A stretch of DNA of 64,000 nt from Rhodothermales bacterium (GTDB lineage Bacteria > Bacteroidota > Rhodothermia > Rhodothermales > JANQRZ01). The DNA lies in assembly GCA_039944855.1 (NCBI GenBank), contig JBDUXZ010000019.1, positions 1-64,000 of the forward strand, written 5' to 3'. How positions within the stretch are numbered: the stretch's first letter is position 1; each line of letters begins with the position of its first letter. Below the pieces are notes generated by a model. That model searched no databases and was not told the DNA's origin. It saw only the letters and a program-made list of their open reading frames with translations. The translations under genes and the position numbers were made by a program. Positions 2,967 through 13,168 of this stretch are shown piece after piece.

Positions 2967-4313
2967 CTAGCGGAAATGGCGCTCGAAGGCGTCGAAGATG
3001 TCCGCACGCAGCGCTTTGCGCCCGGCCTTTGGTCCGCCGTTGATCATAATGACGATTCCGTTCTTCAGGGAACGATCGACGCTGAAGTATGTAGTCACAC
3101 CGTCCTGTCCGCCCAAGTGGTGCAGCGTGCGCGAGTAGCCGCCCACGTCGCGATCTGGGCTCAGGTGGACCCCGGTGCCGTACCACCCGCCCGCCTCACC
3201 GCCACTGTTCTCTTCATTGCCCGTTTCAAGCGGCTGGATGCACGTGCCGGTGTGACAGATCGGGTTGATCGAACCCAGAATCGGCAAGGGCGGGCAGCCC
3301 GCATCACTGGTGCAGGATGCGTTCGAGCTTAGCGTTGCGTGCTGGGCAGGGCGGAGCGCTTCGTGCAGATCGTCTGCCGTGAGGCCGCCTCGCCCCACGC
3401 CATCCACGCTGACATTCATGACCTCGCGCAAGAAGGCCGCATACTCCACCGGATGGGCCAGCAGACCGCCCGGAAACTTGACCTCGGCGTACTCGACCTC
3501 GCATGCGCAGGGCTCGCTGTCGCAGCCGCGTGCGAGATGGTCCATGCTGGCGGATGCGTCAGCGAAGGTGCTCTCGTCCATACCGAACGGCTCCAAAATC
3601 TCGGTCTCCAAGAACTCCTCCCCGTTGCGTCCTGTCTCGGCCAGCAACATCGCTTCGGCCAGCGCGAAGCCCCCGCTCGAATACTTCCACTTCGTGCCGG
3701 GCGTGCCAACGATCTCCACGGGATCGGAGCCAATCGGGGTCAGTAGGTCGTCCAGACCGGTCGTCGCGCTGGGGTGAGAGCACTCGGTCCCCGTGGTGGG
3801 GCGGTTGAGTCCGGCTGCGTTCTTCAGCAGTCGCCGAATGGAAATCATCTGTGTCGCAGCTACCGCCGCTACGCCCTGAATCCCCTGCACATTGACCCAT
3901 ACGCTCACCAGGCTGCCGGCGTGGCCGGACGCCGTATCGCTCACTTTGCGGCCCAGCCCGAACTCGCCGTGCAGCCGTGCCCCTTTCACCATGCCCAGCC
4001 CGGCGACGAACTTGGATAGCGAGGCCGCCTGATAGATCGTCTGGCCGTCTGTCTCGATGCCCGCAGCTCGGTCCTGATAGCCGTAGTGGCCCCGCAGTAG
4101 CGTAGGCACGCCGTCCTCGAACACCACGACCGTCGCGCCATCGGCCCCGTGATGTTCCAAGGCTTCGTCGATGGAGACCCCGCTCGCCCCGTCGATCTGA
4201 ATGTCCTGCGTCATCGCTTGAAAGCGCGTGGCCTCATCGAGCACAGGCCCGCCGCTTCCCGAGCATCCAGCGACGAGGAGAACCAAGCAACCTCCCAGCA
4301 TCACGTTCTTCAT
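2967..4313 (-). CDS. Serine hydrolase lipoprotein (class C beta-lactamase/esterase-like)
   Basis: This 448-residue lipoprotein has a lipobox ending at Cys17 (LLVAGC). The class C beta-lactamase/PBP4 fold motifs are readable: SxxK as S98-L-S-K101, the Tyr motif as Y211-S-S, and H399-L-G in place of KTG. It probably hydrolyses an ester, amide or peptide at the cell envelope; the substrate cannot be told. The ATG at 4313 has a good ribosome site (GGAGGGT) and a lipoprotein signal; upstream ATGs do not. Seven cysteines lie between residues 264 and 358, in a Cys-rich insert (CTSDAGC, CHTGTC) that looks more like myxobacterial secreted proteins. The gene and its AT-rich upstream region (4340-4400) are less GC-rich than their surroundings, which suggests acquisition. 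Confidence 0.85.
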   Translation of the reverse strand: MKNVMLGGCLVLLVAGCSGSGGPVLDEATRFQAMTQDIQIDGASGVSIDEALEHHGADGATVVVFEDGVPTLLRGHYGYQDRAAGIETDGQTIYQAASLSKFVAGLGMVKGARLHGEFGLGRKVSDTASGHAGSLVSVWVNVQGIQGVAAVAATQMISIRRLLKNAAGLNRPTTGTECSHPSATTGLDDLLTPIGSDPVEIVGTPGTKWKYSSGGFALAEAMLLAETGRNGEEFLETEILEPFGMDESTFADASASMDHLARGCDSEPCACEVEYAEVKFPGGLLAHPVEYAAFLREVMNVSVDGVGRGGLTADDLHEALRPAQHATLSSNASCTSDAGCPPLPILGSINPICHTGTCIQPLETGNEENSGGEAGGWYGTGVHLSPDRDVGGYSRTLHHLGGQDGVTTYFSVDRSLKNGIVIMINGGPKAGRKALRADIFDAFERHFR

Positions 4314-4421
4314 GTGACCCTCCGTAAGCGACGGCCGCGACCGCGCACATAGGTTTACTATAAACAAATAATTACACTCTATTATAACGTGCCGACCTGT
4401 GCGAAGTGCGTCGGGTATTGA

Positions 4422-6095
4422 CTACCCAAGCACGAGGCGCAGCCAGCGGTCGAGGTAGGCCGTCGCGCCGGGCAGGAGGGGGATTGCGCCGACGCCGACG
4501 GCCTCCACCGCCGTCCACAGCTTGCTCGCGGCGAACGCGCCCGGCGCGGGCTCGCGGTATGGGAAGAGTGCGACGGCCTGCTCGACGGTCCGCTCCCCCG
4601 CCGCGCTCACGATCGCGTCGCGGTAACGGTGGAGGTCGCCGAGGGCGGGCTCGGGCGGGCCGGGCGCGCCGTGCCGCCGGGCGTACCCGGTGCTGTCGTC
4701 ACGGCGGTACTTCGCGTCGAGCACGAAGCGGCGCGTGGTGCCGTCCCGCTCGATGGTCAGCAGCACGTCGGGGCGCTGCGCGAGGAGGCCGGCGCGGGCG
4801 GGGAAGCGCGGGTTGTACGTCACCGTCACCCGCCGCCCGTCGGCTTCGAACGCGACGCCGTGCCGCCGCCCGCGCCGCAACAGGAACCGGATGCCGCGGT
4901 GCTCGGCGCGGAAGAAGTCGTGCGGGGAGATCGGCCGGTCCAGCACGCGGGCCACGGCGCGGACGACGGTGAGGTAGGCCCACACCTCGTAGAGTGCCCA
5001 CAGGTCGTTCGTCGCGTGCGGGACGGGGCCGTCGGCGAGGCGGAGGCCGAGCGTGAGCGACTGACAGGCGGCGTGGGCTTCGGCGTAGCCGGGCGCGGTG
5101 AGCAGGCGTGGCGTCGGCGCCGGCGGCGGGCCGGGCGAGGCAGCGGCGAGCGGCGCGAGCCGGAGAAGTCGGGCGAGGCGGGCTTCGGTGTCGGCGAGGT
5201 CGGCGAGCACGCGGCGGCGGCGGGCCGAGGCCGGGCCACGGGACTCGTCGGCGTGGAGTTCGGCAAGCGTGCGGCGGGCGGCGGCGGTGCGGGCGCGGAG
5301 CCAGCGGTGCTCGGACGTATCGAGCGTGGCGCGGGCGAGGCGTTCCGTGAGGCGGGCGCGGACGGGCACGCCGGACCGGAGCGCCTGCACAGGACCGGCA
5401 CCGCGCCCCTGCCGGACGGCGGCACGCAGCGAGGCATCGGGCCGCTGCACGCGCTCGGCGCGGACGAGCGTCGGCTCGCGGAGGAGATCGCGGCGGGGGT
5501 GCGCGGCGATGTGGTCGAGCGCGGCTTCGAGCGTGGGGAGCGCGCGGCGGACGAGCGTCAGCCACGTCGCCCGGCGCGGCGGGGCCGAGGTCGCGACGGC
5601 AGGCGACGCCGTCGCGCGGAGATAGTCCAGCGCGAGCCCGGCGAGGGCTTCGTCCACCTCGTCGCGCATCGCCTCCACGTCCGCCCACGCCGCCTTTGTC
5701 GGCTCCACGTCCACCTCGAACGCGACCTCCTCCTCCCCATCGACGGCGATGACGAACGTGCTCCGCCCAATCTGCCCGCCGAAATTGACCGTGCCCGCGA
5801 CGACGCGCCCGCCGTCCTCCCGCGCGAGGCCGCCCACGACTACGGGGTCGCGGTGCCGGATCTCGACCACTCCGTGCGGGCTCGCAGCGAACAGGCGGTA
5901 CGTCGTCTGCTCGGCCAACCGGAGCGGAGCGCCGGCTACGACGGGCATGCCGTTCGCTTCGACGTGCGGCGCCGCGTCGGTCCGAAGCGGGCGTACGGCG
6001 AGGACGCCGGGCGGAGCCGTGGCGTCGGGCGGAGCGGTGGGGCCGCTCCAGGTCAGCCGAACGCGATTGGTGGTGATGGAGAACAGCGGGGGCAT
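4422..6095 (-). CDS. DUF2357/PD-(D/E)XK nuclease, McrC-like partner
   Basis: The 557-residue protein has the layout of DUF2357 proteins with a C-terminal PDDEXK_7 nuclease domain. The first 300 residues are a beta-rich region followed by an Arg-rich helical part. The nuclease core starts near residue 362 with the family's LYEVWAYL helix. The catalytic residues are Asp443 (QRPDVLL) and Asp460-Ala-Lys462 (FVLDAKYR), then the DLHRYRDAI helix. Such proteins pair with McrB-type AAA+ motors as the cutting subunit of McrBC-like restriction systems. The matching motor ends at 6836, also on the minus strand, with a GNAT gene between them. Cleavage activity is inferred from motifs only. Confidence 0.8.
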   Translation of the reverse strand: MPPLFSITTNRVRLTWSGPTAPPDATAPPGVLAVRPLRTDAAPHVEANGMPVVAGAPLRLAEQTTYRLFAASPHGVVEIRHRDPVVVGGLAREDGGRVVAGTVNFGGQIGRSTFVIAVDGEEEVAFEVDVEPTKAAWADVEAMRDEVDEALAGLALDYLRATASPAVATSAPPRRATWLTLVRRALPTLEAALDHIAAHPRRDLLREPTLVRAERVQRPDASLRAAVRQGRGAGPVQALRSGVPVRARLTERLARATLDTSEHRWLRARTAAARRTLAELHADESRGPASARRRRVLADLADTEARLARLLRLAPLAAASPGPPPAPTPRLLTAPGYAEAHAACQSLTLGLRLADGPVPHATNDLWALYEVWAYLTVVRAVARVLDRPISPHDFFRAEHRGIRFLLRRGRRHGVAFEADGRRVTVTYNPRFPARAGLLAQRPDVLLTIERDGTTRRFVLDAKYRRDDSTGYARRHGAPGPPEPALGDLHRYRDAIVSAAGERTVEQAVALFPYREPAPGAFAASKLWTAVEAVGVGAIPLLPGATAYLDRWLRLVLG

Positions 6096-6207
6096 GGGAA
6101 ATCGGGCGTGAGAAAGCGCGCGTTCTCCCCGAACAGGCGGTCGCCCAAATCGGTTGCACCAGAGTCCCCCCGTCCGTAACTAAGGACCCCGCCCGCTCCT
6201 CCCCTCC

Positions 6208-6834
6208 ATGCTCCCTGCCTCCGACCCGCCAGCCCCTCGCGGACCGTCGCTCCACCTCAAGTTGGAGGACGGGCGGCCGGTCCTGCTCCGCCCGGTCCTG
6301 CCGGAGGACGCACCGCTGATCCAGCAAGGGTTGGAGCGGCTGTCGGCCGCCTCCCGGACCTCGCGCTTCTTCGCCCCGGTGTCCCACCTCTCCGACGCCC
6401 AGCTCGACTACCTCACCCACGTCGACCAGGTGAACCACGTCGCGTGGGGCGCGCTCGACCTCTCGACGGACGAGGTTCTCGGGCTCGGCATCGGCCGGTT
6501 CGCGCGGCTGCCGTCCGAGCCCGAGGTCGCCGAAGTCGCCCTCGCCGTCGTCGATGCATCGCAAGGGCATGGGCTCGGGAGCCTCCTGTTCGGCGTGCTC
6601 TACTGCCTCGCCCGCGCGCAGGGCGTGACCGCGTTCCGCGCCGTCGTCATGCCGCACAACCAGGGCCTCGTCGAGCGCCTCCGCGCGATCGGCGGGGTCG
6701 TGCACCACGAAGAGGGGCAGGTGCTCATCGACGTGCCCGTCGTGACCGACACCGACCTGCTGCCGTCCACGCCCGAAGCGGACGGCCTCAAGCGCGTACT
6801 CCGCATGGTGGAAGCGGCGCTCGCCGAGGCGTGA
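6208..6834 (+). CDS. GNAT-family N-acetyltransferase
   Basis: The 208-residue protein has the GNAT fold from about residue 15. RPVLPEDAPLIQQGLERLS marks the first helix. ALAVVDASQGHGLGSLLFGVLYCLARAQG holds the acetyl-CoA-binding Q/RxxGxG/A motif as QGHGLGS. The later VMPHNQGLVERLRAIGG segment also fits the family and resembles the acetyltransferase domains of Pat-type enzymes, but no nucleotide-binding domain is present. The substrate is unknown. The gene lies inside the McrBC-like locus on the opposite strand, and its stop is one base from the stop of the EVE-McrB gene. It could be an unrelated insertion or a modifier of the system. Confidence 0.85.
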   Translation: MLPASDPPAPRGPSLHLKLEDGRPVLLRPVLPEDAPLIQQGLERLSAASRTSRFFAPVSHLSDAQLDYLTHVDQVNHVAWGALDLSTDEVLGLGIGRFARLPSEPEVAEVALAVVDASQGHGLGSLLFGVLYCLARAQGVTAFRAVVMPHNQGLVERLRAIGGVVHHEEGQVLIDVPVVTDTDLLPSTPEADGLKRVLRMVEAALAEA

Positions 6835-6835
6835 G

Positions 6836-8521
6836 TTACTCCCAGAACGACGCGAACCCGTCGGCCAGCAGCCGGTCCGTCATGAGCGCGAGGCGGGCGG
6901 CGGTGCGGGGATAGCGCGCCGCAGGCATCACCGGCGGGCGACCGCTGCGCTCCCACGCTTCGATCCGCTCGCGCACGTCATCGTCCAAGCGGAGCGGCGT
7001 GCCGTCGGAGGCCCAGCCCAGGAGCGCGAAGAGGGCCTGCCGGACGCTGCGGCTGCCCCCGGCGATGCGCGGCAGCAGCTTCATGAACAGGGCGAGGTCG
7101 AGCGGGTCAACGGCCTCGCCGTCGCGGGTGCGGAAGGCGTCGGGCGTTTCCGCCGCGTGGAGGACGAAGAGCGCCGCCTCGTCGCGCAGCCGGTAGCCGA
7201 CGCCGAGCCCGGCGGGCGCGAGCAGCCCGTTCGCCTCCGTCAGCACGGCGACGACGCGCTCGACCTTCGCGGCCACCCGCTCCGAGAGATCGGCGAGCCC
7301 GCCGAGGGTGAGGGCACGTGGTCGCCACGCCGCGACGGGCCACGGCTCCGGCGGCGACATTTCCTCCTGCGGCGACACCTTGCGCCACGTCCCGAGGTCC
7401 ACGTCGGAGAGTTCGAGCGTGAACGCGCGGTCGAGCACCTTCCGGCTGAACCCGTACGCGCTCTCGTCCATGTTCACCGTCCCGACGAGCCCGAGGTTCG
7501 GCGGCAGCGTCACAGCGCGGTCGGCGAGAAGCGGTGCGCTCTCGAACCCGCCGCCGGGCGCGAGGCGGCGGCTCTCGATCCGGCTCAGCACTTCGGCGAG
7601 GTAGTGCTCGGGCCGGGCGAGGTTCATCTCGTCGAGCACGGCGACGGTGAAGCCCCCGCGCTCGGCGGCTTCGCGGGCGACGGTGAGGAGCGCGCCGGGC
7701 CGGAAGTCGCCCTGCAGATCGGTGTAGCCGAGCACATCGGCGCTGTCGGTCCAGTCGGGGCGCACGGGGATGACGTGGGCGGTTCCGCCCGTGGCCTCCG
7801 CCACGAGTACGGGGAGCCGGCTCTTCCCGACGCCCGTCACCCCGGCGAGGATCACGAGCGGCTTCGTCCGCAGCGCCGTCACATACGCCGCGATCTGCCA
7901 CGGCTGATACACGAACCCCCGCGCCGCGACGGCGTCGATCAGCCGTTCCAGCGCCGCCGCTCGGTCCCACTCCGCCAGTTCGGGCTGATAACCGCTCGCC
8001 GGCTCGCCGACGACCGAGGCGGGCTCCTCGCCCCGCTGCGCCTGCCGGAGCCGCTCGAACGCCGCCATCAGCTCGTCGAAGCTGCGGCCTTCGCGGGCGC
8101 GGACGAGGAACTCCAGCACCTTCCCGTCGATGCTCGGGAGCGGGTGGACGACGCGCTGCGCGACGGCGCGGAACTGCCGGTCGGGGTCGTCGAGGTCCGG
8201 GTACTCGTCGAGCACGGTGAGCTTGCCGGCGAAGGCGTCGTAAGCCACCCACGCCTCCTCGCTCAGCCGGACGAGCGGGCGGACGCGGACACGGTGCGGG
8301 TAGTGGCCGCCCGGCACGAGCGCCGTCGCGTCCTCGAACGGTGGACTCGTCACTTCGTAGAGCCCGGCGATGACGCGGCGGCCCGGGAGGTACGCCACGA
8401 TCCGGTCGCCCGGCCGAACCGCCTGCATCGCCTGCCGCCCCACGCGCCGCACGGCGAACGTGCCGGCGCGGTCGTAGACCGGGAAATTGTCGGGAGGGAC
8501 GGACCAGAGCCAGTAAGCCAT
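6836..8521 (-). CDS. EVE-domain McrB-like AAA+ motor
   Basis: The 561-residue protein joins an N-terminal EVE (PUA-like) domain, about residues 1-140 (MAYWLWSVPPDNFPVY start), to a McrB-family AAA+ domain, about residues 200-480. Walker A is GVTGVGKS at 227-234, Walker B is VAVLDEMN with Asp297-Glu298, and the sensor-like GTVNMDES is at 348-354. EVE domains are known or proposed to recognise modified bases such as 5-methylcytosine. McrB AAA+ domains hydrolyse GTP to drive DNA translocation. The protein is therefore predicted to sense modified DNA and activate the nuclease encoded at 4422-6095. The ATG at 8521 begins the EVE fold; the longer frame upstream has no conserved sequence. Confidence 0.85.
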   Translation of the reverse strand: MAYWLWSVPPDNFPVYDRAGTFAVRRVGRQAMQAVRPGDRIVAYLPGRRVIAGLYEVTSPPFEDATALVPGGHYPHRVRVRPLVRLSEEAWVAYDAFAGKLTVLDEYPDLDDPDRQFRAVAQRVVHPLPSIDGKVLEFLVRAREGRSFDELMAAFERLRQAQRGEEPASVVGEPASGYQPELAEWDRAAALERLIDAVAARGFVYQPWQIAAYVTALRTKPLVILAGVTGVGKSRLPVLVAEATGGTAHVIPVRPDWTDSADVLGYTDLQGDFRPGALLTVAREAAERGGFTVAVLDEMNLARPEHYLAEVLSRIESRRLAPGGGFESAPLLADRAVTLPPNLGLVGTVNMDESAYGFSRKVLDRAFTLELSDVDLGTWRKVSPQEEMSPPEPWPVAAWRPRALTLGGLADLSERVAAKVERVVAVLTEANGLLAPAGLGVGYRLRDEAALFVLHAAETPDAFRTRDGEAVDPLDLALFMKLLPRIAGGSRSVRQALFALLGWASDGTPLRLDDDVRERIEAWERSGRPPVMPAARYPRTAARLALMTDRLLADGFASFWE

Positions 8522-8720
8522 CGGAGAGCGAAATGGGAGGCGGAGGGTCGCGCGGCGGCGCCCGGTTCGGACGGGCCGCGCCCGGCCGGGATCGGACGCA
8601 ACGCCGTGAAGATAGGCGAGGCTCCACGAACGGAGGCCGCGCCGGGCCGACGGGGCTTGTCCTGCGTGCGGCACGGCGTTACCATTGCTCCTTCTCCTCA
8701 ACCCATCCCACGGCCTCCCT

Positions 8721-10247
8721 ATGCTGCACCTGCGCTCCCGTTTCCTCCCCGTGCTCTGCCTCGGCACCCTCCTCCTCGCCCTCCCCGCCTGCGACTCCGA
8801 CGATCCGGTCGACCAAGACAGCATCGTCGTGATCGCGCAGGACACGCCCGAACTGAGCATCCTCGTCCAGGCCCTCACCGAAGCGAACCTCGTGACGGCG
8901 CTCAACGGCACCGGCCCGTTCACGGTCTTCGCTCCGACGGACGCCGCGTTCGAAGCCTTCCTCGACGAGCGCGAGATCACGGCCGCGCAGCTCCTCGCCC
9001 GGCCCGACCTCGCCCAGATCCTGCGCTACCACGTCGTCCAGACGGCCGCGCTCTCGTCCGACCTCACCGACGGCCAGACCCTCACGACGCTCGAAGGCAG
9101 CACGCTCGAAGTCGACATCGACGGCGACACGATCTCGCTCATCGGCGAGACCAACACCGTCACCGTCACGACGGCCAACATCGAGGCGAGCAACGGCGTC
9201 GTCCACCTCGTCGACGACGTGCTCCTCCCGGCCGACCTCATCGGCGACGGCCCGCTCGCCGACGCGGCGACGAACCCCGGCACGTGGACGTTCGTCGAGA
9301 CCGACGGCGCGAAGTGCCGCGACGGCTCCGACACCGGCTTCGGCGTCCGGCTCCAGGAAGGCGCCGAGAACCTCATGATCTACCTCGAAGGCGGCGGCGC
9401 GTGCTTCAACGAGCAGACCTGCGGCAGCAATCGGTCGAGCTTCGATGCGAACGACTTCGCAGCTCTCGCGGCAGCGCGCGGGAACGCCGGCATCTTCAAC
9501 ACCACGCTGAGCGGTAACCCCGTCAGCGCGTGGAACATGGTCTATGTCCCGTACTGCACAGGCGACGTGCAAGGCGGCAACGCGCCGAACGCCGTCGTGC
9601 CCGGCGTGCCCGGCATGCAGCAGTTCGTCGGCCACCGGAACGTCGGGCTCTACCTCGACATCCTCGACCGCTACCTAGAGGACGCGGACCAAGTGCTCCT
9701 GACCGGCGCGAGCGCGGGCGGCTTCGGCACGCTCGTCAACTTCGCCCAGGTCGCCGACACGTTCGAGGGCGCCGACCTCACGCTCTACGACGACTCCGGC
9801 CCGGCCTTCTTCGCCGACGACGTGTTCAGCCCCCAGCTCGGCGGCGCGTTCGTCGCGCTCTACAACTTCCCCGCCTCCTTCCCCGCCGACGCCGCCCCGC
9901 TCTTCGCGCCCGACGGCCTCCAAGGGATCTACGCCTACTACGACGCCCGCTACCCGGACGCGAACTTCGGCCTCTCGTCGTACCTCGAAGACCAGACGAT
10001 CCGGTTCTTCTTCGGCTTCGGCCAGCCTGACGGCACGATCACCGGGCCGGAGTACGAGGCCGGACTCCTGGACCTCAACGCTATGGCGCCGGAGAGTTGG
10101 AAGGTGTACTACGCCCCCGGCACGGCGCACACCTTCATCGGCGCCGACGCGACCTACTTCGGCACCTCGGAGGGCGTCGCGCTCAACAGCTGGCTCGGAG
10201 CGCTCCTCGACGGTGACGCCCCCGACGTAATCCCCGTCACGCCGTAA
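8721..10247 (+). CDS. Fasciclin (FAS1)-pectinacetylesterase-like lipoprotein
   Basis: This 508-residue lipoprotein (lipobox LLALPAC, Cys24) joins two known modules. Residues 33-170 are a FAS1 domain (GPFTVFAPTDAAFEAF, then LRYHVV and ASNGVVHLVDDVLLP), typical of surface adhesion. Residues 185-500 resemble the pectinacetylesterase/NOTUM alpha/beta hydrolases: YLEGGGACFN at 221-230 forms the likely oxyanion region, Ser331 in GASAGGFG is the nucleophile, and Asp in YDDSGP and His in GTAHTF complete a possible triad. Removal of acetyl or acyl groups from polysaccharide or another surface ligand is plausible, but the substrate is unknown. The start at 8721 gives the lipoprotein signal. A terminator follows at 10284. 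Confidence 0.85.
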   Translation: MLHLRSRFLPVLCLGTLLLALPACDSDDPVDQDSIVVIAQDTPELSILVQALTEANLVTALNGTGPFTVFAPTDAAFEAFLDEREITAAQLLARPDLAQILRYHVVQTAALSSDLTDGQTLTTLEGSTLEVDIDGDTISLIGETNTVTVTTANIEASNGVVHLVDDVLLPADLIGDGPLADAATNPGTWTFVETDGAKCRDGSDTGFGVRLQEGAENLMIYLEGGGACFNEQTCGSNRSSFDANDFAALAAARGNAGIFNTTLSGNPVSAWNMVYVPYCTGDVQGGNAPNAVVPGVPGMQQFVGHRNVGLYLDILDRYLEDADQVLLTGASAGGFGTLVNFAQVADTFEGADLTLYDDSGPAFFADDVFSPQLGGAFVALYNFPASFPADAAPLFAPDGLQGIYAYYDARYPDANFGLSSYLEDQTIRFFFGFGQPDGTITGPEYEAGLLDLNAMAPESWKVYYAPGTAHTFIGADATYFGTSEGVALNSWLGALLDGDAPDVIPVTP

Positions 10248-12525: not shown

Positions 12526-12852
12526 ATGCTCGACCTCACACCCCACCGAGAAGCCATCGCCGACTTCGCCCGCCGCTGGAAGGTGAAGGAGCTGGCGCTG
12601 TTCGGCTCCGCCCTCCGCGACGACTTCGGGCCGGAGAGCGACGTGGACCTCCTCGTCACGTTCGAGCCCGACGCTCCGTGGAGCCTGTTCGACATCGTCA
12701 CGATGCAGGACGAATTGGTCACCGTGTTCCAGCGGCCGGTGGACCTCATATCGCGCCGTGCCGTGAGGCGAAGCAAGAACCCGCTTCGCCGGGCGTCCAT
12801 CCTCGACTCGGCCCGCACGATCTATGAAGCACGTCCGCGTCACGCTGCTTGA
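12526..12852 (+). CDS. mntA: MntA-type nucleotidyltransferase antitoxin
   Basis: The 108-residue protein has the minimal nucleotidyltransferase signature GSX10DXD (GSALRDDFGPESDVDLLV, residues 27-44). In the HepT/MntA system such enzymes silence the HEPN toxin by adding AMP to a tyrosine. The next gene is a HEPN protein carrying the matching target motif, and the two reading frames overlap by 29 bp. A GGAG ribosome site stands just before the ATG. The C-terminal part (residues 75-108) is basic. The antitoxin role is inferred from family and pairing; a stand-alone housekeeping role is unlikely. Confidence 0.85.
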   Translation: MLDLTPHREAIADFARRWKVKELALFGSALRDDFGPESDVDLLVTFEPDAPWSLFDIVTMQDELVTVFQRPVDLISRRAVRRSKNPLRRASILDSARTIYEARPRHAA

Positions 12853-13168
12853 TGTCTATCAAGCGGGACAGCTCGCCCTAGACTTCGCGCGCGATGTGCC
12901 CAGTGCCGCGGCCCTCCAGGACGACCTCAAGACGAGGGCGGCTGTGCTGCACCAACTCCTCGTCCTCGGAGAGGCCGTCAAGCGACTGCCGGATTCCTTT
13001 CGCGCAGGTCACCCTGCGATCCCGTGGAGGCAGATGAGCGGACTGCGCGACGTGCTGATCCACGCCTATGACGCCGTGGACGAGGAGGAAGTCTGGCGCG
13101 TCCTCCAGCACGATCTCCCCACTGTGCTGGCCCAACTCGAACCCCTGCTCCCGCCTATCCCGGAGTGA
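12824..13168 (+). CDS. hepT: HepT-type HEPN ribonuclease toxin
   Basis: This 114-residue all-helical protein belongs to the HEPN/DUF86 family. The active motif RX4HXY is intact as R-DVLI-H-A-Y near residues 69-75, after the usual IPWRQMSGLRD helix. HepT proteins act as RNases, and the tyrosine of this motif is the residue AMPylated by MntA. With the overlapping mntA gene this forms a complete type VII-like toxin-antitoxin pair. The start at 12824 (MKHVRVTLLDVYQ) lies within mntA, which indicates translational coupling. The gene ends 15 bp from the convergent TonB-receptor gene. Confidence 0.87.
   Translation: MKHVRVTLLDVYQAGQLALDFARDVPSAAALQDDLKTRAAVLHQLLVLGEAVKRLPDSFRAGHPAIPWRQMSGLRDVLIHAYDAVDEEEVWRVLQHDLPTVLAQLEPLLPPIPE

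Follow-up and report, generated by a model that had tools for sequence, protein, structure and literature searches.

An EVE-headed McrBC-like pair of the Rhodothermales interrupted by an antisense acetyltransferase gene

Why does an acetyltransferase gene lie, on the opposite strand, between the motor and the nuclease genes of a McrBC-like pair, and does it belong to the system? The question was raised by a DNA stretch of 64,000 nucleotides (nt) from a Rhodothermales bacterium (positions 1 to 64,000 of contig JBDUXZ010000019.1, assembly GCA_039944855.1), which in its whole length is called the window below. A preliminary description, made from the letters alone, had noticed the three genes. 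The answer that we consider probable is that a restriction system of type IV (McrBC-like), chromosomal and vertically inherited, is encoded here and that its motor-nuclease operon was split by an antisense gene of the GNAT acetyltransferase family, with a mainly regulatory effect. The locus is more than a product of chance: each of the three genes is conserved, and seven other genomes have them in the same order. It consists of the following features:

8607-8615, minus strand: putative -10 element of the motor gene (CTATCTTCA), 93 nt before its start
8521-6836, minus strand: EVE-McrB motor, 561 amino acids, with EVE in about residues 1-128, a helical linker and an AAA+ NTPase domain
6835: the one base that separates the two convergent stops (that of GNAT ending at 6834, that of the motor at 6836)
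6208-6834, plus strand: GNAT acetyltransferase, 208 amino acids, Pat-like, antisense, between motor and nuclease
6096-6207: head-to-head spacer of 112 bp between the GNAT start and the nuclease start, holding the weak symmetric element GTAACTAAG
6095-4422, minus strand: McrC-type nuclease, 557 amino acids, with an N-terminal beta sandwich (about residues 9-133), DUF2357 and PD-(D/E)XK

The coordinates thus agree with the preliminary description, which had placed the GNAT gene on the opposite strand with one base between its stop and that of the motor.

The EVE-headed NxD motor and its McrC-type partner

The motor was described earlier as an EVE domain fused to a McrB-type AAA+ protein, and the Pfam matches to EVE (PF01878, residues 2-88, 28.5 bits against a cut-off of 23) and to AAA_5 (residues 223-353, 33.2 bits against a cut-off of 22) support this. 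In the predicted structure (mean predicted local distance difference test score, pLDDT, 84.5) the N-terminus adopts a PH1033-type EVE fold (1wmm, template modelling score 0.80 on the target) and the AAA+ part resembles E. coli McrB by its fold, as it does by profile in PDB 6hz4 (E 4e-4). The Walker A motif is 227-GVTGVGKS-234 (G227, K233, S234) and the Walker B motif ends in Asp297-Glu298. The signature N350-M-D352-E353, however, reads N-x-D-E rather than N-x-x-D, the form represented in the alignment by NTAD of E. coli McrB; N350, D352, E353 and the key motif residues are invariant across 19 motor homologues. A motif with NxD in place of NxxD, usually followed by E or D, marks the NxD branch of the 2024 census, in which no NxD-type McrB GTPase was characterised (PMC11090510). 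Judged by its signature and the definition of the census, and not by a tree with published NxD members, the motor is assigned to this uncharacterised branch of McrB GTPases and not to the canonical NxxD McrB. The McrB-type label holds for the AAA+ domain, but the signature had been overlooked and the protein does not stand beside canonical McrB. Additionally, because the two near relatives examined outside the order (from Ectothiorhodospiraceae and Planctomycetaceae) carry MrcB_N, a DUF3578-type domain, at the position of EVE, the EVE domain is a true swap for this classical reader within one motor lineage, as had been proposed. In PADLOC the motor matched only a candidate family (PDC-M26A), and neither the nuclease nor the GNAT protein had a match.

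The nuclease matches DUF2357 (98 bits) and PDDEXK_7 (100.5 bits), both above the Pfam cut-off, and its residues D443, D460, K462 and E370 are invariant in 19 homologues. The predicted model (pLDDT 83.8) matches McrC of T. gammatolerans (6ut7_G, Z 10.1) and of E. coli (6hz4_N, Z 9.1); a plain Foldseek search returned no PDB match at E <= 0.001, and McrC was recovered by a second aligner. The first ~130 residues are predicted to form an Ig/filamin-like sandwich (Z ~6-7); Ig-like domains are among the types that the census lists for NxD-branch systems (PMC11090510). The earlier assignment as a DUF2357/PD-(D/E)XK nuclease is therefore reinforced by Pfam, by invariant residues and by the McrC fold, and all residues named at that time (Walker A 227-234, D297-E298, D443/D460/K462) proved correct. 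The absence of EVE and nuclease active residues, against which the preliminary description had measured its proposal, was not observed: the nuclease residues are invariant, and the EVE and McrC folds were both found. Relatives outside the order have longer nucleases of 820-850 amino acids (L128, 7165-9636; L124, 7301-9844; L numbers denote loci), in which ~280 residues without a Pfam family follow PD-(D/E)XK; this extension is missing from the window nuclease.

By content the locus falls into the McrBC-like class, since a McrB-like NTPase, a McrC partner with its catalytic residues and a predicted N-terminal reader domain are all present. The contiguous mcrB-mcrC operon, which is usual although not a biochemical requirement, is absent from the window and from seven relatives. 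The closest likeness is to the EVE-McrB/McrC type IV systems, reported from nearly 300 genera and abundant in Bacteroidetes (Bell et al., 2020, PMC7641849), which share the fusion of EVE with a McrB-like NTPase and the DUF2357-PD-(D/E)XK partner; the window pair differs by its interruption with an antisense GNAT gene, and in sister families the two loci are distant. The AAA+ motor and McrC folds of E. coli K-12 and T. gammatolerans McrBC match the window proteins. For the T. gammatolerans motor, TgMcrB, a reader of the EVE superfamily (YTH) is reported, which binds N6-methyladenine (m6A) in DNA (PMC7641849). E. coli McrBC, in contrast to the window pair, has the NxxD signature, a DUF3578 reader and contiguous genes. 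The NxD-branch McrBC systems, including the CoCoNuTs (Bell et al., 2024, PMC11090510), share with the window pair NxD followed by E and the Ig-like domain at the N-terminus of the nuclease. However, the window pair has two proteins only, its PD-(D/E)XK domain is intact and no cold-shock, HEPN or Hsp70 module was seen. We rejected an identity with CoCoNuTs, as the motor model has no long coiled coil (only short helices at 130-162 between EVE and AAA), the McrC nuclease is intact and Pfam shows no extra nuclease adjoining the pair. In a literature search for McrBC joined with an antisense acetyltransferase, nothing relevant was among the titles and abstracts listed. The type of system is known; the NxD motor with its EVE reader and the antisense-interrupted, partly uncoupled gene order set this variant apart. 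A small two-protein NxD version with an intact nuclease would also be a convenient model for the NxD branch.

From these domains, residues and folds, an EVE-headed McrB motor with a McrC-type nuclease, we infer base recognition and restriction. The pair is most likely a modification-dependent restriction system, which is how far the earlier proposal of such a system can be carried. In the proposed mechanism the EVE domain would read a modified base in DNA, the NxD-type McrB ring would translocate when stimulated by DUF2357 of the nuclease, and the PD-(D/E)XK domain would cut.

Distribution and history of the interposed acetyltransferase gene

We searched 119 genomes of the order with each of the three proteins and then mapped the loci (G and f numbers denote genomes and families). 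A GNAT gene lies antisense between motor and nuclease in the window genome (G000) and in G002, G032, G039, G046, G053, G067 and G071, that is, in 8/10 system-bearing genomes of two families, f1 and f12. The contig of G071 ends inside the nuclease, and this genome was counted as interposed, for the N-terminus of the nuclease was found divergent from GNAT; G021 was not counted, for no nuclease N-terminus was found on its GNAT contig. With eight genomes carrying the arrangement, an artefact of assembly or annotation is ruled out. Motor and nuclease are directly adjacent in G001, in G013 and in seven genomes of family f3, with a gap of 2-3 bp in GNAT-less G001 and G013 and of 3 bp in f3, so tight coupling is present or restored in GNAT-less genomes; no GNAT relative was found in G001 and G013. 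A wider search gave 74/80 loci with the nuclease directly downstream of the motor and no GNAT between them.

The two genes lie apart in further genomes: ~425 kb in G012, 11.5 kb in G009, and on different contigs in G008, G011, G021 and G023. Motor and nuclease co-occur in 24/24 nuclease-bearing genomes, including G007 with a motor fragment at a contig end. Where McrB- and McrC-type genes are kept together in one genome at separate loci, they would form a McrBC pair encoded in trans; such separate loci are L033 and L100 (G012), L098 (G009), L113 and L114 (G008), L111 and L112 (G023), and L115 and L116 (G011). The coupling of a McrBC pair can thus be lost, through an antisense gene in this locus and through full separation in sister families, while the pair is retained.

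The GNAT protein itself matches Acetyltransf_1 (21.6 against a Pfam cut-off of 20.7), and its acetyl-CoA motif Q119-x-x-G122-x-G124 is intact and invariant across 18 homologues. It also matches NCBIfam Pat (E 4e-28), over the GNAT part of the model only, with 98 bits against an equivalog cut-off of 460. As this score is below the cut-off, the protein is called only Pat-like: by its sequence it resembles the catalytic part of Pat protein acetyltransferases and is not filed as Pat. Pat-type GNATs acetylate protein lysines. One would argue that the enzyme is a functional part of the system, which acetylates the motor, the nuclease or a nucleic-acid target and acts as a modifier or an off-switch. 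The match to Pat, a family of protein-lysine acetyltransferases, and the position kept in two families over a large divergence would fit this, as would the existence of EVE-GNAT fusions, a known class for which acetylation of bases or of aminoacyl-tRNA was proposed (PMC7641849). However, two genomes of the clade keep motor and nuclease without GNAT, homologous GNATs occur in genomes without the system (e.g. G047, G060, G095, G099), the adjacent pair without GNAT prevails in the wider search, and the syntenic state of the whole neighbourhood means that a conserved position proves little alone. We therefore regard a functional role of this kind as quite improbable. What GNAT catalyses most likely has nothing to do with the cutting reaction. 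The wider search and the two GNAT-less genomes of the clade rule out that it is a core component of EVE-McrBC. The suggestion that GNAT is part of the system thus stands as far as its conserved, inherited position in the two families goes, but the gene is lacking elsewhere and was probably lost twice within the clade, and the recurrence of the three-gene order in relatives does not make it a required component.

The trees of motor, nuclease and GNAT recover the families. The interposed GNATs group together (support 89/92), apart from most stand-alone GNATs, and their group includes the non-interposed GNAT of G021. The simplest account of these trees would be a single GNAT insertion before f1 and f12 parted, with two clean losses (G001, G013); given the trees, several independent insertions are less likely. 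The Pat-like gene would then have entered the motor-nuclease junction once, in antisense, in or before the common ancestor of the two Rhodothermales families, and would have turned one operon into the array motor-> <-GNAT nuclease->, in which the 3' ends of motor and GNAT converge and nearly abut, whereas GNAT and nuclease start from a divergent region.

Three families have the motor in 3/3, 7/9 and 7/7 of their genomes, and in four families it lies close to uvrB. A block running from rhodanese and SufE, on the nuclease side, to nuclease-GNAT-motor is common to both GNAT families. This shared synteny (uvrB, rhodanese, SufE) and the near-complete presence within families indicate that the locus is vertically inherited. 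A mobile defence island is not supported by the neighbours rhodanese, SufE, QueA and UvrB. As the whole block is syntenic, the conservation of the GNAT position is weaker functional evidence than it appears. Such inheritance near uvrB, with near-complete presence in three families, is also what one would expect if the pair had turned from defence to housekeeping or genome maintenance, and the pair is kept even when its genes are hundreds of kb apart, e.g. in G012. We hold this to be unlikely. The system is missing from many families of the order and from 2/9 f12 genomes and is thus not essential; the residues of reader, motor and nuclease are intact, as is typical of modification-dependent restriction, and near relatives carry the classical MrcB_N reader.

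Promoter-like elements and the split operon

A generic scan of 4200-8800 found neither sigma-70 promoters nor terminators, and no terminator-like hairpin. For this reason we turned to a -10 profile built from upstream regions of the relatives themselves. The upstream regions of G032 carry a -10-like TAnnnT about 26-35 nt before start codons; the consensus TAnCTT was derived from the window genome and G032, with sites taken from -38 to -22, a range that was chosen once the position histogram had been seen. The motor element CTATCTTCA fits TAnCTT and scores 11.4, a value reached by ~0.1% of random 150-nt windows. On the GNAT strand, GTAACTAAG lies 31 nt before the GNAT start as a weak -10-like match (P 0.08).

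The element GTAGCATACG occurs between the nuclease and GNAT starts of five f12 genomes. It resembles a -10 site on either strand and precedes the nuclease start by 11 nt (P 0.002-0.015 each) and that of GNAT by 15-28 nt. It is rare, with no copy in 400 kb of G032 outside the locus, and nothing comparable precedes the nucleases of GNAT-less operons (P 0.09-0.67). According to PMC12825309, bidirectional promoters of a pseudo-symmetrical kind are common in bacteria. Separate promoters for nuclease and GNAT in the f12 relatives are thus the favoured interpretation of these sequences. Elements resembling -10 sites were also seen 11-13 nt before motor starts (L083:8262 in G002, L082:8211 in G001, L087:6106 in G053 and L084:11426 in G013). 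As the 11-nt distance of the nuclease element resembles these distances, the data suggest leaderless messages of nuclease and motor in the order.

On this basis we infer promoter use and antisense control as follows. Motor and nuclease would no longer be obligatorily co-transcribed, GNAT and nuclease would share a divergent promoter region, and GNAT transcription would be antisense to any read-through from the motor. The split array would be convergent/divergent and possibly noncontiguous, and the insertion probably bears on how and when motor and nuclease are produced rather than on their action.

The outline of the locus is identical to that of noncontiguous operons (S. aureus menE-menC-MW1733-ytkD; tha/ith-1 of phage 80alpha; PMC7154746, PMC11087260), in which an antisense gene is likewise nested between co-directional partners, and one of which, the Tha system, controls a defence nuclease (PMC11087260). 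In a true noncontiguous operon, one motor-nuclease transcript would run through GNAT, and the GNAT and operon mRNAs would keep each other down, as in these examples, through colliding polymerases and cleavage by RNase III. The arrangement is conserved in 8 genomes, no terminator-like site lies between motor and GNAT, the stops of which converge 1 bp apart, and in the window genome a strong -10-like element precedes the motor and none the nuclease. However, relatives carry a promoter-like element immediately ahead of the nuclease, and the separate loci of other families show that co-transcription is not required. The nested GNAT, moreover, is no known inhibitor. We consider such an operon possible, if doubtful. 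It is a long shot that the restriction system is controlled as a vertically inherited operon of this noncontiguous kind, in which transcription of the acetyltransferase gene, antisense to the message of motor and nuclease and possibly tied to the metabolic state through the Pat-like enzyme, decides on nuclease production; if true, a type IV system that is dangerous to its own cell would have a safety switch built in. The natural GNAT-containing and GNAT-less alleles make the co-regulation of such a motor and nuclease directly testable.

Several points weigh against the reading that we prefer, a vertically inherited restriction system with a split operon. The earlier alternative of separate promoters is backed by the f12 relatives, but not for the nuclease of the window genome, which has no convincing promoter-like element (the best match within 42 nt has P 0.71). 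As the GNAT element is weak as well, the promoter model rests on the relatives; the elements of the five f12 genomes are of common ancestry and not independent. The neighbour genes show no context of a defence island, and a housekeeping role would also agree with the long vertical retention. Furthermore, the CoCoNuTs, relatives from the NxD branch, are predicted to target RNA (PMC11090510), so the target could be DNA or RNA.

Neighbouring genes

By Pfam, the neighbours of the pair are GNAT, a beta-lactamase-like protein and a pectinacetylesterase. The last is a fasciclin and pectinacetylesterase protein beside the motor (8685-10247, plus strand), and similar proteins occupy the same place in G001, G002 and G032. 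Directly after uvrB, at 12526-13168 on the plus strand, overlapping nucleotidyltransferase (NTP_transf_2, PADLOC PDC-S09) and HepT-like genes form a toxin-antitoxin pair of the MntA/HepT type; the HepT-like gene at 12824 is thus part of a separate pair beyond uvrB.

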